A DNA stretch of 64,000 nucleotides. It comes from Prochlorococcus sp. AG-355-G23. Lineage in GTDB: Bacteria; Cyanobacteriota; Cyanobacteriia; PCC-6307; Cyanobiaceae. Location: NCBI GenBank assembly GCA_003278765.1, contig QCDK01000001.1, forward strand, positions 1 through 64,000. Direction: 5' to 3'. Within the stretch, counting starts at the first letter, position 1, and each line of letters starts with the position of its first letter. Of the stretch, positions 1,382-25,517 are shown piece by piece. The position numbers were made by a program, and so were the translations under genes. The notes under the pieces are model-generated. The model was not told the origin of the DNA. It was given only the letters and a program-made list of their open reading frames with translations, and did no database searches.

Positions 1382-2197
1382 TCAAAAACTTATCCTTTCA
1401 TCGAATAAATATGATAGGTGTGGGAATTTAGGTTCAGTAGTCCAAATACCTATTTTTTTTATAAAAGATTCTTTTTTACATAACCTTGAATTAATAACCC
1501 ATTTTTTATTTGGGTTAAGTTGAAACATTATCTGATTTGCGTAAATATTTTTTTTTGGTATCCCATCTCTATGACAACATATAGTTGGATTAAAACCATA
1601 AACTCTATCCCCTTTACCCTTAAATGTTATAGTTTTTTTTGAAGAAGATATTTTTCTAAAATTATTAATATTTTTGCTATCAATTTTGTTTATCACTTCT
1701 AGAGGACCTGAATCATCATTTATATCTAATGGAATAAATATTTTAAGCATATTGCTGCTATTAGGCTTATCAAAGTGCCATCTATATGAGTAAGGTTGCT
1801 TTAAAGTTGAGACTTCCCTAAGTTTAGGAGGTATGAATTTGCGCTCATAAAAAATTATAAAGTCAATAGAAAAATTAAAGCCTGTTATTTCAGTAATTTT
1901 ATTTCTTATATCTTTTGTAAAAATTTGCGTTATAAAATTATTTATTTGATTAATATTCAAGTTTTTAATATTTAGGAATTCATTTACTTTTGTTAATTCA
2001 AGAGTATCCTTTTTTTCTATAAGAATATCTTTATTAAGTGATAATTTAAAAATCCCTTTTTTATGGAAATCTGCTTGAGTAGGTTTTATTTTGATGAATA
2101 TATCTTCATAAATGGTTGTTATTGTCTGATAAATTTTGCAGATAGTCTTATAGATCTTTTTTGCAATTATTAATCTTAGTCTAAAATTTAAAATCAT
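1382..2197 (-). CDS. 2-oxoglutarate/Fe(II) oxygenase-like protein (phytanoyl-CoA dioxygenase fold)
   Basis: The protein has 271 residues. The C-terminal half contains RWHFDKP (His141, Asp143) and, about 66 residues later, CCHRDG (His209), which fit the HxD...H iron triad of double-stranded beta-helix oxygenases. The segment between them (IFIPLDINDDSGPLEVI) is typical of PhyH-like enzymes, where it precedes the distal histidine. The N-terminal third is basic and unassigned. Such enzymes hydroxylate small molecules or sugars; in a glycan island a modifying role is likely but is inference. It lies 76 bases from the phosphodiesterase gene on the same strand. Confidence 0.6.
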   Translation of the reverse strand: MILNFRLRLIIAKKIYKTICKIYQTITTIYEDIFIKIKPTQADFHKKGIFKLSLNKDILIEKKDTLELTKVNEFLNIKNLNINQINNFITQIFTKDIRNKITEITGFNFSIDFIIFYERKFIPPKLREVSTLKQPYSYRWHFDKPNSSNMLKIFIPLDINDDSGPLEVINKIDSKNINNFRKISSSKKTITFKGKGDRVYGFNPTICCHRDGIPKKNIYANQIMFQLNPNKKWVINSRLCKKESFIKKIGIWTTEPKFPHLSYLFDERISF

Positions 2198-2273: not shown

Positions 2274-2732
2274 TTAAGTTATTAAATTAGGATAATCCGT
2301 GCAAATTCCAGCTAATTGTTTATTTTTAAGATTGGAAAGTTTATTTATTGAAGTTGTCTGCTCTGGCATTACCCATATAGAATTTACACTTAAAAGTTCT
2401 CCTGGATAAGTCCAAATATAACCTTTACTGGTAAGGGTATATTTGTCATTTTCATGCCAAAAATAATTATACAATTCTCCAAATTGCTTAAAATAATTTA
2501 TTGCCTCTAAATTTTTACAGTGTATCCAGCATATTTCTTTTAATTCAAATATTTCTTTTTCTGTTATTTTTTCTTCTGGACAGTCATGTCCTAAAAAAAG
2601 ACTATTTTTTATTACTCTAATGTCTATCTCAACATCATATCCTAATTCAATACATTTTCTTATTTGTGATAAGCGATTCTCATTGGAAGAATTACTTCCA
2701 TTAATATTAGCTCTATGGGCAATAATTTTCAT
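2274..2732 (-). CDS. Short glycerophosphodiester phosphodiesterase-like protein
   Basis: The 152-residue protein begins MKIIAHRANINGSN and contains His6-Arg7, Asn17-Glu18-Asn19, Glu35-x-Asp37 and GHD (49-50 region). This is the order of catalytic and metal-binding residues in the GDPD family (HR, NE, ExD, GHD). It is much shorter than typical GDPD enzymes (around 230-350 residues), so only part of the TIM barrel is present. Its neighbours are a bifunctional phosphatase-nucleotidyltransferase (divergent) and the putative oxygenase, so it may act on a phosphodiester or cyclic phosphate intermediate of a surface glycan rather than on lipid breakdown products. That role is inference. Confidence 0.65.
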   Translation of the reverse strand: MKIIAHRANINGSNSSNENRLSQIRKCIELGYDVEIDIRVIKNSLFLGHDCPEEKITEKEIFELKEICWIHCKNLEAINYFKQFGELYNYFWHENDKYTLTSKGYIWTYPGELLSVNSIWVMPEQTTSINKLSNLKNKQLAGICTDYPNLIT

Positions 2733-2854
2733 TTATAAACTTTTAAGTATTTAAATTCTTACGCTGATAAATAATCTTACTATCTAGTATATAATTTAAT
2801 TGCTAAAATTAAATTTTTATAATTAACTTTTTAAAATATTATTAGGAGATTTGA

Positions 2855-4228
2855 GTGGTAAAACTTGTAATTTTTGATCTCGATGGTGTTTTAATTGACA
2901 GTAAAGAATATCATTATGAAGCCTTAAATCTTGCTTTAGGAGATGATTATAAAATAAGCAAAGAAGAGCATATAAGAAATTATGATGGATTACCGACTAG
3001 TGAAAAATTAAAACTTCTATCTGAAACTAAAGGTTTATCTCCAAGTAAATTTGATCAGATTTGGAAGGATAAACAAGAAAATACTTTAAATATCTTTAAA
3101 AATTCCATATCTAAAGATTATGAATTGATGAATTATTTTCAACAATTAGCTGATGAGAATTACAAGATAGCAGTAGCTTCTAATAGCATAAGAAATACAG
3201 TAAAAATTATTCTTTTAAGATTAGGCATCCTTGAATTCGTTGATATTTATATATCAAATGAAGATATTGTAAGGAACAAACCATATCCAGAGATGTATTG
3301 GAAATGCATGATTGCTTTAGGAGCACTCCCTGATCAAACAGTTATCGTTGAAGATAGTGTAGTTGGAATTCAAGGGGCATTAGATAGTAAATGTAATTTG
3401 ATAACTGTTCAAAATAGATCAGATCTAAATCAATCAAAAATAGATAATATTAAAAAAATACTTAATATCAAAAAGAAAAAAAGTTCTTGGGAAAATAGAA
3501 CTATGAATGTTCTGATTCCCATGGCTGGAAGAGGTAGTAGATTTGAAAGTCAAGGATATACTTTTCCAAAACCATTGATAGAGGTTAAGGGTAAACCAAT
3601 GATTCAGGTTGTAGTGGATAATTTAAATATAAAAGCAAATTATACTTTCATTGTCCAAAAGGAGCATTATGAAAAATATAATCTTCAATATCTATTAAAT
3701 TTAATTTCGCCAAATTGTAATATTGTCCAAGTTGATGGGATTACAGAGGGAGCTGCTTGTACCACTCTTTTAGCTAAAAGATTTATTGATAATGATCAAC
3801 CTTTGCTTATGGCTAATTCTGATCAATTTGTTGAATGGGACTCTAGTAAAATCCTTTATGCTTTCTCTAACGGGTCATCTGATGGAGGTATTTTAACCTT
3901 TCCAGCATCACACCCTAAATGGAGTTATGCCAGATTAGATAAAGAAGGATATGTTTCAGAAGTAGCGGAGAAGAAGCCCATATCTAATAATGCAACAGTT
4001 GGTATTTACTGGTGGAGAAAAGGTTCTGATTATGTAAAGTATGCCGAACAGATGATAAAAAAAGATATTAGAACAAATAATGAATTTTATGTATGTCCTG
4101 TATTTAATGAGGCTATTCAGGACGGTAAAAAAATTTCAATTAAAGAGATTGAAAAAGATGGAATGTGGGGAATAGGTACACCAGAAGATTTAAATTATTT
4201 TCTTAAAAACTATAGTGGAGAAGTTTAA
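2855..4228 (+). CDS. Bifunctional HAD phosphatase-sugar nucleotidyltransferase
   Basis: Two domains are fused in 457 residues. Residues 1 to about 205 are a HAD phosphatase of the beta-phosphoglucomutase/phosphoglycolate phosphatase type, with nucleophile motif FDLDGVL (Asp8, Asp10), VASNS, RNKPYP (Lys142) and VEDS (166-168). Residues from about 217 are an NTP-transferase domain with IPMAGRGSRF, FPKPLIEVKGKPM and MANSDQFV as the metal-binding aspartate region. The start is GTG at 2855 with a good AGGAG at 2844-2848. The linker is lysine-rich. The fusion suggests successive dephosphorylation and nucleotide activation of the same sugar or polyol phosphate, but the substrate is not determinable here. 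Confidence 0.8.
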   Translation: MVKLVIFDLDGVLIDSKEYHYEALNLALGDDYKISKEEHIRNYDGLPTSEKLKLLSETKGLSPSKFDQIWKDKQENTLNIFKNSISKDYELMNYFQQLADENYKIAVASNSIRNTVKIILLRLGILEFVDIYISNEDIVRNKPYPEMYWKCMIALGALPDQTVIVEDSVVGIQGALDSKCNLITVQNRSDLNQSKIDNIKKILNIKKKKSSWENRTMNVLIPMAGRGSRFESQGYTFPKPLIEVKGKPMIQVVVDNLNIKANYTFIVQKEHYEKYNLQYLLNLISPNCNIVQVDGITEGAACTTLLAKRFIDNDQPLLMANSDQFVEWDSSKILYAFSNGSSDGGILTFPASHPKWSYARLDKEGYVSEVAEKKPISNNATVGIYWWRKGSDYVKYAEQMIKKDIRTNNEFYVCPVFNEAIQDGKKISIKEIEKDGMWGIGTPEDLNYFLKNYSGEV

Positions 4229-4293
4229 TAATCCTATACTTTTGAAAATTTAATCTTATAAACCTTTTTACAAATTTTATAGTTTTATAAAAT

Positions 4294-5097
4294 TTAATTT
4301 TCTTTGAGTAAATACCAATCATCAAATTTAGATACTTTCTCAAGAACTCTTTCATAGCCATTTTTTTTAAGAAGTTTAAAAATCATATCTCTCTTACTTT
4401 TTACATTATTATGTTCTATACAAATTGATTTTATTTTATAATTTTTAAAGTTATATCCCTCAAGAATATCAAGCTCACTACCTTCAGTATCTATTGATAA
4501 AAATTGAATTTCATAAGGTGCTTTGTATTTTTCAAGTAAATCTTGAAGTGATAATGTCTCAACTTTATATTTTTTAGAGTTATCATATCTAATATTTTTG
4601 GCCCAGTCATTATTATCCGCAAATTTTTCTAAAGTAGATAATGAAGGAGAGCTTTCTTTTGAGTTAAAAACTTCTAAAAATTCATAAATTTCACCACTCT
4701 TTTTAGCTATACACTTGGTCTCAATATTGCAATTTCTATTAGAGTTTAAACTTTTATGCCAAACTTTAGCTGGTTCAACTAAGATCCCATCCCATCCTAA
4801 TTTTTTTTCTAATAGCCAAGTGTTACTACCATCTAAGCCATCGGTAGCTCCAAATTCAACAAAATACCCTGGTTCTTTTGAATAGTTAAACGCTAATGCA
4901 AATAAATCTTGTGCTAGCTGTGATTTGGAAAATGGCAGAAAAGGAGCAATTAACTCTCTTTGTTTCTTATTAAGTTGACTATATAAAAGAGAACAATTAT
5001 CTAAATCCCTAAAAAATTCTAATTCTTCTTTTCTAGCTAACTGGAGAGAAATACCTCCAATTCTCAATAATTTATTTATGATTCTTCTTAAAAACAT
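4294..5097 (-). CDS. FkbM-family methyltransferase
   Basis: This 267-residue protein has the SAM-binding segment GYFVEFGATDGLDGSNT (about 77-93), followed by WDGILVEPAKVW and, later, FLSIDTEGSELDILEGYNF, which together are diagnostic of FkbM methyltransferases. Members O-methylate sugars or polyketides. In this locus the likely target is a sugar hydroxyl of the surface glycan. It heads the same strand as the heptose genes, with a gap of about 70 bases to the next gene, and is probably part of that transcription unit. The specific acceptor is unknown. Confidence 0.85.
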   Translation of the reverse strand: MFLRRIINKLLRIGGISLQLARKEELEFFRDLDNCSLLYSQLNKKQRELIAPFLPFSKSQLAQDLFALAFNYSKEPGYFVEFGATDGLDGSNTWLLEKKLGWDGILVEPAKVWHKSLNSNRNCNIETKCIAKKSGEIYEFLEVFNSKESSPSLSTLEKFADNNDWAKNIRYDNSKKYKVETLSLQDLLEKYKAPYEIQFLSIDTEGSELDILEGYNFKNYKIKSICIEHNNVKSKRDMIFKLLKKNGYERVLEKVSKFDDWYLLKEN

Positions 5098-5165
5098 AGT
5101 CTTAATTTCAATTTAATATTTTAAAGTTGGTTTGAAAAGCATTTTATTAGGTGAAATTTTATAAA

Positions 5166-6434
5166 TCAGTCAAATTCATTTACATTTAAAAATTTCATTT
5201 TTAAATTTTCTGCTGCTTCTTTATCCCTCCATGAGTCGCCAATTAAGAGAGATTTTGTTAAATCTATATTTCTCTCGTATGAGGCTTTTAGGAACATTCC
5301 AGGAAGTGGTTTTCTGCAAAAACAATTAATCTTAAGTTCTTTAATCTCTTCTTTGAAACCCATATGATTATGATGAGGGCAAAGGTAAAATGCCGCGATA
5401 TTTAAATTATGATCCTGACATAAACGTATAATTTCACCATTTATCATTATTACTTTTTCCCAGGATACTTTTCCCATTGCAATTTGAGGTTGATTAGTTA
5501 TTAGGATAACTAAATCAAACTTATTTGCTATCTTACTAATTATTTTGACTCTGTTTGTAAGTAAATTTATTTGATCAAAATCTAAAATATATTCCCCATT
5601 TTTACACTTAATTATTGTGTTATCTCTATCAAGAAATAGAGCCTTTTGTCTCTTTAAGTATGAAAGACTTTTTACTTTACCTTTTTTAATATCATTTTTA
5701 ACATTTAATAATCTTTTTGGAGTCCCCATATCTTTCAGATATTCTGAAGTGTTGTAGCTAAAAGTTCTTAATTTTTGATTATGGCAGTTTATTATAATAT
5801 CCTTAAATAAGGATAATTCTTTGTTTGTTTTTATAAAACTTTTATCAATAATTTTAATCGCTTTTTTTGATAAAACTGACAAACCAGAATTACCTAAGTA
5901 AAATCCCTTTACATCATTTTTCTCATTTTTAAATTTATATTTATTAATAGATAAATTGGGACTTTCAATAATGCAATCTGAATCTTCGGGATGATTTGTT
6001 AGATGAGTTACAAAAGTAATTTGAGATTTGTTTAAGTTGTGAAATTTGTGAAGTCTTTTTATGTCAATATCGAAAATAATATCCCCATTTAAAAAAATGA
6101 ATTCCTCATCAAGTTTATCTACTAAATCAAAAAGGGAGCCCGCTTCGCCTTTTTTTACTTTTTCTTTATGGATGAAAATTTTAATTTGATAACAACTTAA
6201 AAGTTGTTTTGCTTCTTTCAAAAAAAATTCATGCTGATAATTTGTAATCCAAATAAATTTTGTTATACCTTGCTCATAAAGTACTTTTATTGAGCGTTCT
6301 AAAGTATGTAATCCATCAATTTTAAAAAGTGGTTTTGGCACCCCCATTGTTATTTCATTTAATCTCGATCCTGTGCCACCTAGAGTAATTACAGCTTGAT
6401 TGATTTGATTGTCTATATTACCCATGTTTTGCAA
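5166..6434 (-). CDS. Fused heptose-1-phosphate guanylyltransferase (HddC-like) and GmhB-like heptose bisphosphate phosphatase
   Basis: The 422-residue protein carries an N-terminal nucleotidyltransferase (TLGGTGSRL about 17-25, VPKPLFKIDG, FLNGDIIFDID) and a C-terminal HAD phosphatase of the GmhB/HisB-N type from about 263 (ALFLDRDNTI, Asp269/Asp271; ILITNQPQIA; zinc site CPHHNH...CFCRKP with Cys352, Cys371, Cys373; LIGDSWRD). Together with the two genes upstream it completes sedoheptulose-7-phosphate to GDP-D-glycero-D-manno-heptose. The kinase gene overlaps its start by 22 bases; ATG at 6425 is an alternative start. The domain order is the reverse of the fusion at 2855-4228. Confidence 0.85.
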   Translation of the reverse strand: MQNMGNIDNQINQAVITLGGTGSRLNEITMGVPKPLFKIDGLHTLERSIKVLYEQGITKFIWITNYQHEFFLKEAKQLLSCYQIKIFIHKEKVKKGEAGSLFDLVDKLDEEFIFLNGDIIFDIDIKRLHKFHNLNKSQITFVTHLTNHPEDSDCIIESPNLSINKYKFKNEKNDVKGFYLGNSGLSVLSKKAIKIIDKSFIKTNKELSLFKDIIINCHNQKLRTFSYNTSEYLKDMGTPKRLLNVKNDIKKGKVKSLSYLKRQKALFLDRDNTIIKCKNGEYILDFDQINLLTNRVKIISKIANKFDLVILITNQPQIAMGKVSWEKVIMINGEIIRLCQDHNLNIAAFYLCPHHNHMGFKEEIKELKINCFCRKPLPGMFLKASYERNIDLTKSLLIGDSWRDKEAAENLKMKFLNVNEFD

Positions 6435-7411
6435 CCTTCATAATCAATAGGGACTTGTTTAATAAATATATTTTGTTTGACTAATTTTTTTAGGCTTTTA
6501 TCTATATCACTACCTTGATATTTGGCAAGAAAATATCCTCCTCCTCCTGCCCCTAATATTTTTATTACCTTAAACCCTTCTTCAAACAAGATATCTTGTA
6601 TTTGTAATAATTGAGTATTCATAACACCTTTCATATCTTTTTTTATTTCCCAAGATTTACTTATTGCAATATCTAATTTATTTATTATTAAATCTATATC
6701 AGACAAATTTTTTGCTTCAGATATGAATTCTTCAGCTATATAAAGGATCTTTTCTATTAAATTAAAGGATTCTGGATCATTTTTTATAATTGAGAGTTGC
6801 AAAGATGCAGAACGAGAGATAGATGAATTGATAATATAAAGACTTTCTGCGTACTTAGAAATTGCCTTTGAAACTAATGGATAAGAATTATTTTTTACAA
6901 TGCCGTTTTTCTTGAAAGACAGGTAATTTATTCCTCCTAATGCACACATATATTGATCTTGTCTCCCAATTTTATCTTTAGCTTCCTGAAGTTCGATCTC
7001 ACAAGCTAATTCAGCTATTTTTTCATTTGGAATATCAAGATTTATGTTATGTAATTTTTTAATTGATTTTACTAATGCAACTATAAATGATGATGAACTC
7101 GCTAAACCCCCTCCAAGAAAAGATTCTCCAAAAGAAGCTAATTCAATTGGTTGATTTACAGAAAGTACCTGGAAGCATTTTCTTATAATTGGATGAGATA
7201 TCGAATCAATAGATATATATTCTTCTCTTGAACTATAGTTTAATAAGCCCCTTGAAGAGTTTTCTCCTCTATACCCTATTATTACTCTTGAATAACTTGC
7301 GACTGCAAAACCTATTGAAAAGCCTTTACCCTTCTTTTCTACAAACCAATCTAGGTCAGAGCTACCACCAATTAAGGATATTCGACATGGACATCTTGAA
7401 ATAACAATCAT
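6413..7411 (-). CDS. hddA: D-glycero-D-manno-heptose 7-phosphate kinase (GHMP family)
   Basis: This is a 332-residue GHMP kinase with N-terminal RCPCRISLIGGSSDL, the phosphate-binding loop GGGLASSSSF near residue 97, and the C-terminal motif KILGAGGGGYFLA. The length and the RISLIGGSSDL start match HddA, which phosphorylates heptose-7-phosphate at C1 in the GDP-heptose route. The start ATG overlaps the TGA of gmhA by four bases (ATGA), indicating translational coupling. The 3' end overlaps the HddC/GmhB fusion by 22 bases. The assignment rests on family resemblance plus the complete pathway context. Confidence 0.87.
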   Translation of the reverse strand: MIVISRCPCRISLIGGSSDLDWFVEKKGKGFSIGFAVASYSRVIIGYRGENSSRGLLNYSSREEYISIDSISHPIIRKCFQVLSVNQPIELASFGESFLGGGLASSSSFIVALVKSIKKLHNINLDIPNEKIAELACEIELQEAKDKIGRQDQYMCALGGINYLSFKKNGIVKNNSYPLVSKAISKYAESLYIINSSISRSASLQLSIIKNDPESFNLIEKILYIAEEFISEAKNLSDIDLIINKLDIAISKSWEIKKDMKGVMNTQLLQIQDILFEEGFKVIKILGAGGGGYFLAKYQGSDIDKSLKKLVKQNIFIKQVPIDYEGCKTWVI

Positions 7412-8031
7412 GCTATCAAATCTTCATTAACTCTCTTATTGTATTTGGAATTGTTATTTTTATTTTTGTCTAATTTTTTTTGAAGATTTTGTTTAATGTA
7501 GTGAAATATAGCCATTTGGGAATCTTCAGCAATCTCCATATCATTCATTTTGACATGTATTGGGATATCTACTAATTTTTTTAAAGCCCCTCCTGTATAA
7601 CCTACAATTGCAGCTGTTTTTATATTTTTTTTTAACGCACTTCTAGCAGCTTTAATCAAATTCATTGAATTGCCGCTACCAGATAAAAATATAAGTAAAT
7701 CTTTACTATTTACTTTTGTATTTATAAGAATTTCATAAACTTCTGAGTAATCAATATCGTTTGAAAGTGCAGTTATGTAGCATGAATTATCCGAAAGAGA
7801 AATAATATTAATAGATTTACCCAATACAGCAAATGTCTTTGAATAGTCACCCACAATATGATGTGCATTAGCAGCACTTCCTCCATTTCCTACCAAAAAT
7901 ATATTAGAAGAACCACCAATTCTCTTTGAAATTTCATCTTCCAAATTATCTACGAAAGATTGATCTATTTCATCAATCGCGTTTGAAAGACTTCTTCCAT
8001 AATCTTTAAGGCTTATGTAATTCAGGCCCAA
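7408..8031 (-). CDS. gmhA: Sedoheptulose-7-phosphate isomerase
   Basis: This 207-residue SIS-domain protein has VGNGGSAANAHHIVGD (phosphosugar-binding loop), FLSGSGNSMN, and EIAEDSQMAIFHYI, which carries the glutamate and histidine expected of GmhA. It converts sedoheptulose-7-phosphate to D-glycero-D-manno-heptose-7-phosphate, the first step towards activated heptose. The start is a TTG after a T run, with an in-frame TAG just upstream, so no better start exists. It is the first gene of the tightly packed gmhA-hddA-hddC/gmhB set. Confidence 0.9.
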   Translation of the reverse strand: MGLNYISLKDYGRSLSNAIDEIDQSFVDNLEDEISKRIGGSSNIFLVGNGGSAANAHHIVGDYSKTFAVLGKSINIISLSDNSCYITALSNDIDYSEVYEILINTKVNSKDLLIFLSGSGNSMNLIKAARSALKKNIKTAAIVGYTGGALKKLVDIPIHVKMNDMEIAEDSQMAIFHYIKQNLQKKLDKNKNNNSKYNKRVNEDLIA

Positions 8032-25231: not shown

Positions 25232-25307
25232 ATTTTTCGTTATTTAAAGTTGAAATATGAATTATAAATTGAACAAAATTTTTTTAAAAATAATTTTTTA
25301 AAATTTA

Positions 25308-25381
<74 letters not shown>

Positions 25382-25517
25382 ATCTTTTTATTATATCCGA
25401 CACTATAGGCCTAAACAATCAAAGTAAATTCTTTTTATGATTTAGTAAATATCCTTTTTTTTTTATTCTCTTTCCAGAATAAATTACATAAAATTAGAGA
25501 ATGAGGCAATGTGAATT

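Follow-up and report, generated by a model that had tools for sequence, protein, structure and literature searches.

A HAD-nucleotidyltransferase fusion and a short GDPD-like protein form a conserved pair of ocean bacteria, archaea and cyanobacterial viruses with a probable role in making an activated cell-surface sugar

The window analysed here, a stretch of 64,000 nucleotides from Prochlorococcus sp. AG-355-G23, carries two genes in which a nucleotidyltransferase (NTase) is fused to a HAD domain. An earlier note had described these fusions as having opposite domain order, and this is indeed the case, with HAD followed by NTase at 2855..4228 (forward strand, 457 aa) and NTase followed by a GmhB-type HAD at 5166..6434 (reverse strand, 422 aa). 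Divergent from the HAD-NTase lies a short GDPD-like phosphodiesterase gene (2274..2732, reverse strand, 152 aa), and according to the ORF coordinates the two genes are separated by a gap of 122 bp (2733..2854), a putative site for the promoters of both. The same divergent layout was found in another genome of the family (G419, locus L033), with a 104-bp gap, and in AG-892-C17 (L050), with a 121-bp gap. An oxygenase-like ORF of 271 aa (1382..2197, reverse strand) is a neighbour outside the conserved cassette.

The NTase-GmhB fusion combines an HddC-like NTase (NTP_transferase at residues 14-251, 1.1e-19) with a HAD-IIIA phosphatase (HAD-IIIA/GmhB models at about 262-419), and is accompanied on the same strand by an HddA-like GHMP kinase (6413..7411) and a GmhA-like SIS isomerase (7408..8031), both assigned from Pfam/NCBIfam matches. 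Judged by sequence, it belongs to a GDP-heptose-like operon separate from the HAD-NTase cassette. The fusion passes the HAD-IIIA subfamily-domain models TIGR01656 and TIGR01662, and the cut-offs of the GDP-heptose equivalogs were not reached (GmhA 88 of 209.45 bits, HddA 79.6 of 600, GmhB 89.4 of 178, HddC 53.3 of 300). Full-length relatives with 40-45% identity occur in 3 other genomes among the 201 searched, and polyol- and choline-phosphate cytidylyltransferases appeared as weak matches. A permutation of one gene as the origin of the opposite domain orders was ruled out, because the HAD domains belong to different classes (IA versus IIIA).

The identity of the HAD-NTase rests on Pfam/NCBIfam matches, a PDB profile search, an AlphaFold model compared by Foldseek and conserved catalytic residues. 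It starts with a GTG codon, and the same Met is where the alignment of the compared relatives begins. A beta-phosphoglucomutase-like HAD-IA domain (residues ~1-205, 2855-3469; HAD_2 at residues 5-185, 6.9e-27) precedes an RmlA-like NTase domain (residues ~217-452, 3503-4210; NTP_transferase at residues 223-426, 1.5e-10), which scored 41.5 bits against a PF00483 gathering threshold of 21.2. The model is of high confidence inside the domains (mean pLDDT 93.3, pTM 0.65). In the HAD domain, which contains the DxD, Ser/Thr, Lys and Glu-Asp motifs of HAD-IA members, positions D8, D10, S/T109, K142, E166 and D167 are conserved in 137 of 137 fused copies, as are G225, G227, K239, D323, E372 and K373 of the NTase, with R229 in 136; the window's protein shows the PF00483 signature G-x-G-S-R...PKP, Asp, Glu-Lys. 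Since the main catalytic positions of both domains are invariant, the HAD-NTase is no chance reading frame. RmlA-type sugar-1-phosphate nucleotidyltransferases carry near their C-terminus the Asp of W-x-D-x-G-T, which has a role in metal binding; the corresponding position 439 is Gly in 136 fused copies and Ser in one. Furthermore, the cap region of the HAD domain contains an invariant set, H20/H39/T48/K51/K73, that suits a substrate bearing a second charged group. Among the matches listed, the best solved structure for the NTase is 4evw, a protein of unknown function, followed by sugar-phosphate enzymes. A similar N-terminal HAD is also found in the bifunctional mannitol-1-phosphate dehydrogenase/phosphatase MtlD (7ocn), whose partner domain is a dehydrogenase instead of an NTase. 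Among the 25 of 39 NCBIfam matches listed, the only model passed is the general HAD-IA subfamily TIGR01509 (38.7 versus 29.4 bits), and no equivalog cut-off was reached, in agreement with the earlier view that this fusion lacks an obvious pathway.

The short GDPD carries the motif series HR..N..ExD..GHD..HxK, invariant in 37 copies. Its model is confident and matches GDPD structures, which make up most of the top rows among the matches listed; against 1o1z, the predicted structure gave a VIA Z of 10.9 over 142 aligned residues (rmsd 3.2 A). Together with motifs and co-occurrence, the model indicates that the gene is real, encoding what is predicted to be a compact, single-domain, miniature GDPD barrel. 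While the predicted structure has the fold of PF03009 and shares the HR / ExD / HD / K signature with its members (1o1z, 2pz0), the 152-aa protein gave no Pfam GDPD match at E 10; longer relatives pass the family threshold of 23.6 bits (52.1 for the 284-aa protein of L115, 48.6 for the 286-aa protein of L099). The compared short copies measure about 140-175 aa, whereas GDPDs of PF03009 such as 1o1z and 2pz0 have at least 218 aa. In GDPDs, the Glu of the Glu-x-Lys motif is a metal ligand. The short protein has H71-C-K73 instead, with both H71 and K73 invariant in the 37 copies, and 26 aligned longer relatives have N-, H- or Q-x-K, versus IEIK in 1o1z and 2pz0. Activity on ordinary GDPD substrates is therefore uncertain.

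Co-occurrence marks the HAD-NTase and the short GDPD as a conserved pair and not a local oddity. Out of 400 genomes of the family, only three (G000, G419, G124) encode the HAD-NTase as a single full-length frame, and a separate search found the short GDPD in the same three, an overlap with a chance of ~9e-8 if both searches drew the same 400 genomes. In phages, every one of the 11 records that contain 80% or more of the HAD-NTase also has the GDPD, and a related NTase accompanies it in the 5 further GDPD records. The 137 fused copies come from SAR11, SAR86, cyanobacteria, archaea and viruses; 116 of them have a GDPD-like ORF no more than 2 kb away, and 10 more have one at 2.0-2.9 kb. These counts are not independent, because the genome loci were limited to the best 80 of 116 matches, 37 of them Pelagibacter-type, and the viral loci to the best 80 of at least 591, picked for likeness to the window. 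With profiles for GDPD, WavE, HAD and NTase that were built from the same loci as they scored, GDPD-like ORFs accounted for 161 of 1,349 ORFs within 3 kb of the NTase versus 0 of 1,621 farther off. In five SAR11 loci (L062, L065, L069, L076, L079), GDPD, HAD-NTase and WavE genes adjoin or overlap. The GDPD is missing at 11 of the 137 copies, nine of which are on contigs ending less than 1.5 kb away, while L073 and L096 lack it although their contigs are not cut within 1.5 kb. The simple ORF caller missed some true genes, e.g., the annotated phosphodiesterase of L027, which we aligned from its annotated coordinates, and L127 yielded no NTase ORF. A further 29 genome loci, mostly of CPR bacteria and archaea, have only a separate NTase, with GDPD in 20, HAD in 17, WavE in 9 and all three in 8 within 3 kb; the nine without GDPD include four Rhizobium loci and Micrarchaeota L092.

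The earlier note had proposed a conserved trio of GDPD, oxygenase and HAD-NTase, of which the GDPD/HAD-NTase pair holds and the oxygenase does not. Apart from the three genes adjoining in the window, nothing joins the oxygenase to the pair: a search for it at E 1e-3 through the 3,211 ORFs from the compared loci turned up no homologue, and of the 5 out of 400 family genomes that encode it only the window's own has the pair, leaving a single pathway of the three genes with next to no probability. We therefore ruled it out as a cassette member. Its '2OG-oxygenase-like' label derives from an HxD...H...R pattern judged by eye, and no Pfam family matched the ORF above chance.

In other loci, the cassette has further partners, namely a separate second HAD and WavE-superfamily transferases, neither of which was found in the window's neighbourhood. 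A WavE-superfamily ORF, with an invariant R-x-D motif, lies within 4 kb of 84 of the 137 fused copies, as compared to 1 of 998 ORFs farther off. A Pfam search of the window's genome returned no WavE gene, a weak negative, as the control was likewise without a match anywhere. Among plasmids, WavE was found in 2 records and the short GDPD gave no match. A possible role of WavE as a fructosyltransferase in the Vibrio core was considered as a guide and set aside when the literature search returned nothing usable. Relatives of the NTase occur in other contexts. Fusions with an RpiB-type isomerase are found in SynMITS9220M01 and Bellamy, both phages, and at L171, where the fusion lies ~1 kb from a HAD-NTase and the two are separate paralogues; tandem-NTase loci contain aldolase-II, PRK-like kinase and RuBP-5-phosphatase-like HAD genes. 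The enzymes associated with these relatives, which differ in gene content, hint at C5 sugar phosphates.

Taken together, the HAD-NTase and its own conserved GDPD partner, outside the GDP-heptose operon, are best read as the separate activated-sugar or polyol branch that the earlier note had suggested. The most likely product is a single nucleotide-activated precursor of surface glycans, for which we can name candidate substrates only. With somewhat better than even confidence, we propose a mobile glycan-precursor cassette, in which the GDPD-fold phosphodiesterase would cleave or open a phosphodiester and so release a small sugar or polyol in phosphorylated form, one phosphate would be taken off (or moved) by the HAD domain, and the fused NTase would couple the remaining phosphate with a nucleotide to yield NDP-X; a transferase, of the WavE superfamily in many genomes and phages, would then add X to a surface glycan. 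While domain content, catalytic residues, the predicted phosphodiesterase fold, tight linkage, the absence of the oxygenase from the cassette and separate histories of the two genes are established, we infer the order of steps, the nucleotide and the nature of X, for which the enzymes associated with relatives favor a C5 sugar or polyol phosphate.

Another reading has the HAD act as a mutase, shifting the phosphate from C5/C6 to C1 (e.g., ribose-5-phosphate to ribose-1-phosphate), so that the NTase makes an NDP-furanose from which WavE adds the furanose. NDP-furanose sugars shed a 1,2-cyclic phosphate, which the GDPD would open. Among the 25 of 39 NCBIfam matches listed, the HAD scores highest with models of beta-PGM type (TIGR02009, 99 bits), solved beta-PGMs are among the best HAD matches listed, three-gene operons would need no extra kinase, and relatives contain the RpiB-NTase fusion. 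Nevertheless, we consider this rather unlikely, as TIGR02009 (99 of 153.35 bits) and the beta-PGM equivalog TIGR01990 (88.5 of 189.4) both stay below their cut-offs, and in the PDB profile search the phosphatases TM_1254 (100.1 bits) and MtlD (90.2) score about like beta-PGM (94.5). In addition, R49 of beta-PGM, which we take to be the phosphate-binding arginine, aligns to Thr48, invariant in the 137 copies, while chain 6hdi shows Ala there.

Agrocinopine synthase is a GDPD-fold protein that forms a phosphodiester. By the same token, the short GDPD could be a transferase that passes the phosphorylated moiety of NDP-X to a glycan, with a different role for WavE; the greater constancy of GDPD-like than of WavE-superfamily genes and the change of the Glu in Glu-x-Lys to His, Asn or Gln would fit. 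The predicted compact barrel with its standard GDPD signature, and the presence of WavE-superfamily genes with invariant R-x-D as ordinary transferase candidates, make it improbable. Equally improbable is the salvage of lipid headgroups, in which the GDPD releases glycerol-3-phosphate (or choline/ethanolamine phosphate) from glycerophosphodiesters for a donor of the CDP-glycerol or CDP-choline type. It would accord with the GDPD fold of the model and with the existence of polyol- and choline-phosphate cytidylyltransferases in the NTase superfamily, yet it leaves the HAD without a role, the NTase resembles 4evw and sugar-phosphate enzymes, with LicC and IPCT absent among the matches listed, and the genes that accompany relatives speak for C5 sugar phosphates.

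Compared with known systems, the proposed glycan-precursor cassette shares with the known HAD-IIIA phosphatase/NTase system a sugar-phosphate substrate and the fusion of both activities, but differs in its HAD-IA class, domain order and GDPD-like partner, and lacks both a kinase and an SIS isomerase. CDP-6-D-glucitol of C. jejuni HS:5 and CDP-mannitol of S. pneumoniae are made by an NTase (PF01128) and an NAD(P)-dependent reductase (PMC10918830), comparable to our cassette in that an NTase and a further enzyme supply the polyol donor from which a surface polymer is built; the NTase of the HAD-NTase is PF00483, and the passages searched mention no GDPD or HAD. The pneumococcal CDP-2-glycerol genes were dropped as a guide, since the set given in the excerpts includes a dehydrogenase but neither GDPD nor HAD (PMC5207522, PMC3493582). 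Table 4 of another report lists in the HS1/8 capsule insert of C. jejuni IA3902 three consecutive genes, CJSA_1360-1362, for a 'glycosyl transferase' (241 aa), a haloacid dehalogenase (219 aa) and an unknown protein (212 aa), and that report observed no second capsule from the insert (PMC7901785); by size and neighborhood alone, they resemble the NTase, HAD and GDPD of L028. Judged by search listings and abstract openings, a direct description of the cassette was not found in the open-access literature, a weak result as subscription journals are mostly outside it and 'HAD' and 'WavE' are also ordinary words.

The cassette is located between glycan genes in marine bacteria of very high abundance and in the viruses infecting them, a setting in which phage adsorption can hinge on surface sugars. 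The cassette predicts a new activated sugar and offers a miniature version of a classical enzyme fold; as its core proteins are small, the product is open to direct assay. In the trees, with AU-test groups defined after inspection, the Prochlorococcus HAD-NTase falls within viral copies and its GDPD within cyanobacterial copies, so the two genes have different histories, a case of phage-host gene exchange inside a two-gene module, with transfer from virus to Prochlorococcus as the inferred direction. As a tentative and rather doubtful extension, SAR11, Prochlorococcus, archaea and T4-like cyanophages might share an unrecognised pathway whose product is a nucleotide-activated pentose, pentulose or the corresponding polyol, the miniature GDPD acting on a cyclic or diester phosphate intermediate; phages might use it to modify the glycans of their hosts or virions, and in Prochlorococcus a viral HAD-NTase might have displaced the native one, with the GDPD retained.

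ORF and domain searches bore out two fusions of nucleotidyltransferase (NTase) and phosphatase domains, with the make-up described in the earlier note. The first (HAD-NTase, 2855-4228, + strand, 457 aa) belongs to an unnamed NDP-sugar-type cassette, whose components are individually of known kinds; no description of its gene combination or product was found in the open-access literature searched. The cassette is noteworthy for its spread over SAR11, cyanobacteria, archaea and cyanophages, and for its miniature GDPD, encoded in the window by a divergent neighbour (2274-2732, - strand, 152 aa). Three concordant tests, on 400 genomes of the family, 50,697 phage records and the fetched loci, showed this short GDPD to be the conserved partner of the HAD-NTase.

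A full-length single-frame fusion was present in three of the 400 family genomes (G000, G419 and G124), and the short GDPD in the identical set, while in G114 and G441 both fusion domains aligned, split over separate reading frames. Among the 50,697 phage records, 11 covered at least 80% of the fusion and 16 carried the GDPD, every one a Synechococcus phage: the 11 with the fusion were joined by SynMITS9220M01, two Bellamy and two S-SM2 records, all five of which have a related NTase; two S-SKS1 records had no GDPD match despite an NTase match. Across the fetched loci, a GDPD-like ORF lay within 2 kb of 116 of the 137 fused copies (window 1/1, annotated phages 5/5, family genomes 2/2, other genomes 46/50, viral contigs 62/79), and none of the 1,621 ORFs located beyond 3 kb of an NTase was GDPD-like. 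For the remaining 21 copies, the GDPD was located at 2.0-2.9 kb in ten and absent from the locus in 11, nine of them on sequence ending within 1.5 kb and two (Pelagibacter L073 and L096) not so cut. Five Pelagibacteraceae loci (L062, L065, L069, L076 and L079) show a compact run of GDPD, HAD-NTase and WavE, bordered in L062 by gyrB-like and lepA-like genes as read by eye. Two differing HAD-NTase copies, kin to bacterial ones, occur in the Lokiarchaeota MAG Hel_238_bin13 (L053 and L057) and may reflect a binning error or transfer.

Where genome loci had only a separate NTase, a GDPD was found within 3 kb in 20 of 29, a HAD in 17 and both in 16, the GDPD being absent from L092, L102, L103, L114, L122, L124, L126, L128 and L129. 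Rows of NTase, GDPD and HAD also occur on plasmids of Pseudomonas aeruginosa (NZ_CP017294.1, L027:7998-11148) and Acetobacter (L032:8007-10947), in whose records the first NTase is annotated 'glycosyltransferase family 2'.

Among the matches listed, the HAD-IA domain of the first fusion is nearest to the TM_1254 phosphatase, beta-phosphoglucomutases and the MtlD phosphatase, and its NTase to 4evw, a protein from Vibrio whose sole designation is nucleoside-diphosphate-sugar pyrophosphorylase, followed by RmlA and GlmU. HAD residues D8, D10, K142, E166 and D167, cap-region residues H20, H39, T48, K51 and K73, and NTase residues G225, G227, K239, D323, E372 and K373 are invariant in all 137 fused copies, and judged by sequence both domains look active. 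RmlA-type enzymes carry a W-x-D-x-G-T motif with a functional Asp; 136 of the 137 copies have Gly at this position. The domain folds of the predicted structure are reliable and their relative placement less so, given a mean pLDDT of 93.3 and a pTM of 0.65.

The short GDPD has no significant Pfam match, and HR, N, ExD, GHD and HxK motifs are common to 37 relatives. Its predicted structure (pLDDT 93.7, pTM 0.88) matched GDPD structures with VIA Z up to 10.9 among the matches listed, over 142 of its 152 residues; the matched chains have at least 218 residues, and the short protein would be a miniature barrel. Split loci encode forms of 210-230 aa or about 285 aa, and both of the latter examined (n = 2) passed the Pfam GDPD cut-off. 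The Glu of the Glu-x-Lys motif is substituted in every aligned form, short and longer. PHROGs includes the short form among its families of unknown function.

The pair has WavE-like genes (PF07507) nearby in SAR11, CPR bacteria, G124 and Ruegeria, with a PF07507 match at E 0.01 in 15 of 16 aligned members. A chiefly phage-borne family of 216-269-aa proteins, often in several copies per cluster, proved by profile comparison to be a relative of WavE (hhalign probability 95.7%, E 1e-8). One or the other occurs within 4 kb of 84 of the 137 fused copies (genomes 22/50, viral contigs 56/79, annotated phages 5/5, family genomes 1/2) as against 1 of 998 more distant ORFs; no WavE-type ORF lies within 4 kb of the window's own fusion.

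The two genes of the pair gave different trees. In the HAD-NTase tree (44 rows), the Prochlorococcus copies of the window, G419 and L050 fall within an 18-row clade containing 15 viral rows (support 100/100), and holding them together with G124 was rejected (p-AU 0.0007). In the GDPD tree, covering 42 of these rows (L057 and L162, without GDPD, left out), the same four form one clade (100/99), and forcing the GDPDs of the window, G419 and L050 beside the viruses neighbouring their HAD-NTase was rejected (p-AU 0.001). At HAD-NTase identities of 76-84%, GDPD identity was 60-64% between hosts (3 pairs), 41-51% between host and virus (median 46%, 45 pairs) and 59% in the median between viruses (372 pairs). 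The simplest account would be that a viral HAD-NTase copy was exchanged in next to a resident Prochlorococcus GDPD, a direction that we infer. It is weakened by the wide scatter of GDPD identities in viral pairs (34-85%, lowest tenth below about 44%); also counting against it, the viral rows were selected for likeness to the window and the AU-test groups were named once the trees had been seen.

Enzymes associated with relatives jointly point to C5 sugar phosphates, which would be candidate substrates of the window's enzyme. In cyanophage glycan clusters (L222:3775-4932, L048:8004-9161 and L171:3724-4878), a related NTase and an RpiB/LacA/LacB isomerase domain form one protein, seen in phages SynMITS9220M01 and Bellamy and in contig L171, with 40% identity to the window's NTase domain in SynMITS9220M01 and 38% in Bellamy. 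The one isomerase domain tested, that of SynMITS9220M01, passes TIGR00689 (109.8 over 88.3 bits). Since L171 has this fusion about 1 kb before a HAD-NTase, the two are paralogues in one cluster. The L222 neighbourhood additionally contains a KdsC-like phosphatase, a GHMP kinase and a GDPD. Four cyanobacterial tandem-NTase loci (L043, L044, L045 and L046, in family genomes G429, G022, G016 and G099) each contain an aldolase-II-like gene and a HAD, most like ribulose-1,5-bisphosphate 5-phosphatase in L044 (5.6e-54, 183 of 330 bits), and in three a large protein carries a kinase domain, PRK-like in L044. The nearest model of the aldolase-II gene of S-SM2 and Bellamy is L-ribulose-5-P 4-epimerase, with a score under cut-off. 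L043-L046 thereby represent another module, made up of aldolase-II-like, tandem double NTase, GT2-type, 195-201-aa GDPD-like and RuBP-5-phosphatase-like HAD genes, with the PRK-like kinase-domain protein in three of the four.

The second fusion (5166-6434, - strand, 422 aa) combines an HddC-like NTase with a GmhB-type HAD-IIIA domain; its gene overlaps that of an HddA-like kinase (6413-7411, -), which in turn overlaps a GmhA-like isomerase gene (7408-8031, -). Its proposed role in GDP-heptose synthesis held in part: the domain content of the operon is GDP-heptose-like, but none of the four components (HddC-like, GmhB-type, HddA-like and GmhA-like) passed its equivalog cut-off.

The window sequence, from a genome of 1.35 Mb, is cyanobacterial and Prochlorococcus-like: the photosystem II genes psbD/psbC were recognised by eye at 57.6-60.0 kb, and the closest named genome relative of the first fusion, among the matches listed, is an uncultured Prochlorococcus. 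GC content is 0.24-0.30 across the first 24 kb, where glycan genes are numerous, ORFs outside those tested being judged by eye. A NUDIX protein (796-1299, +), nearest to the GDP-mannose mannosyl hydrolase model (121 bits, cut-off 146), adjoins the oxygenase-like ORF (1382-2197, -). A tRNA-Arg(tct) lies at 25307-25382 (-), by the end of the low-GC glycan block, as at a genomic island edge.
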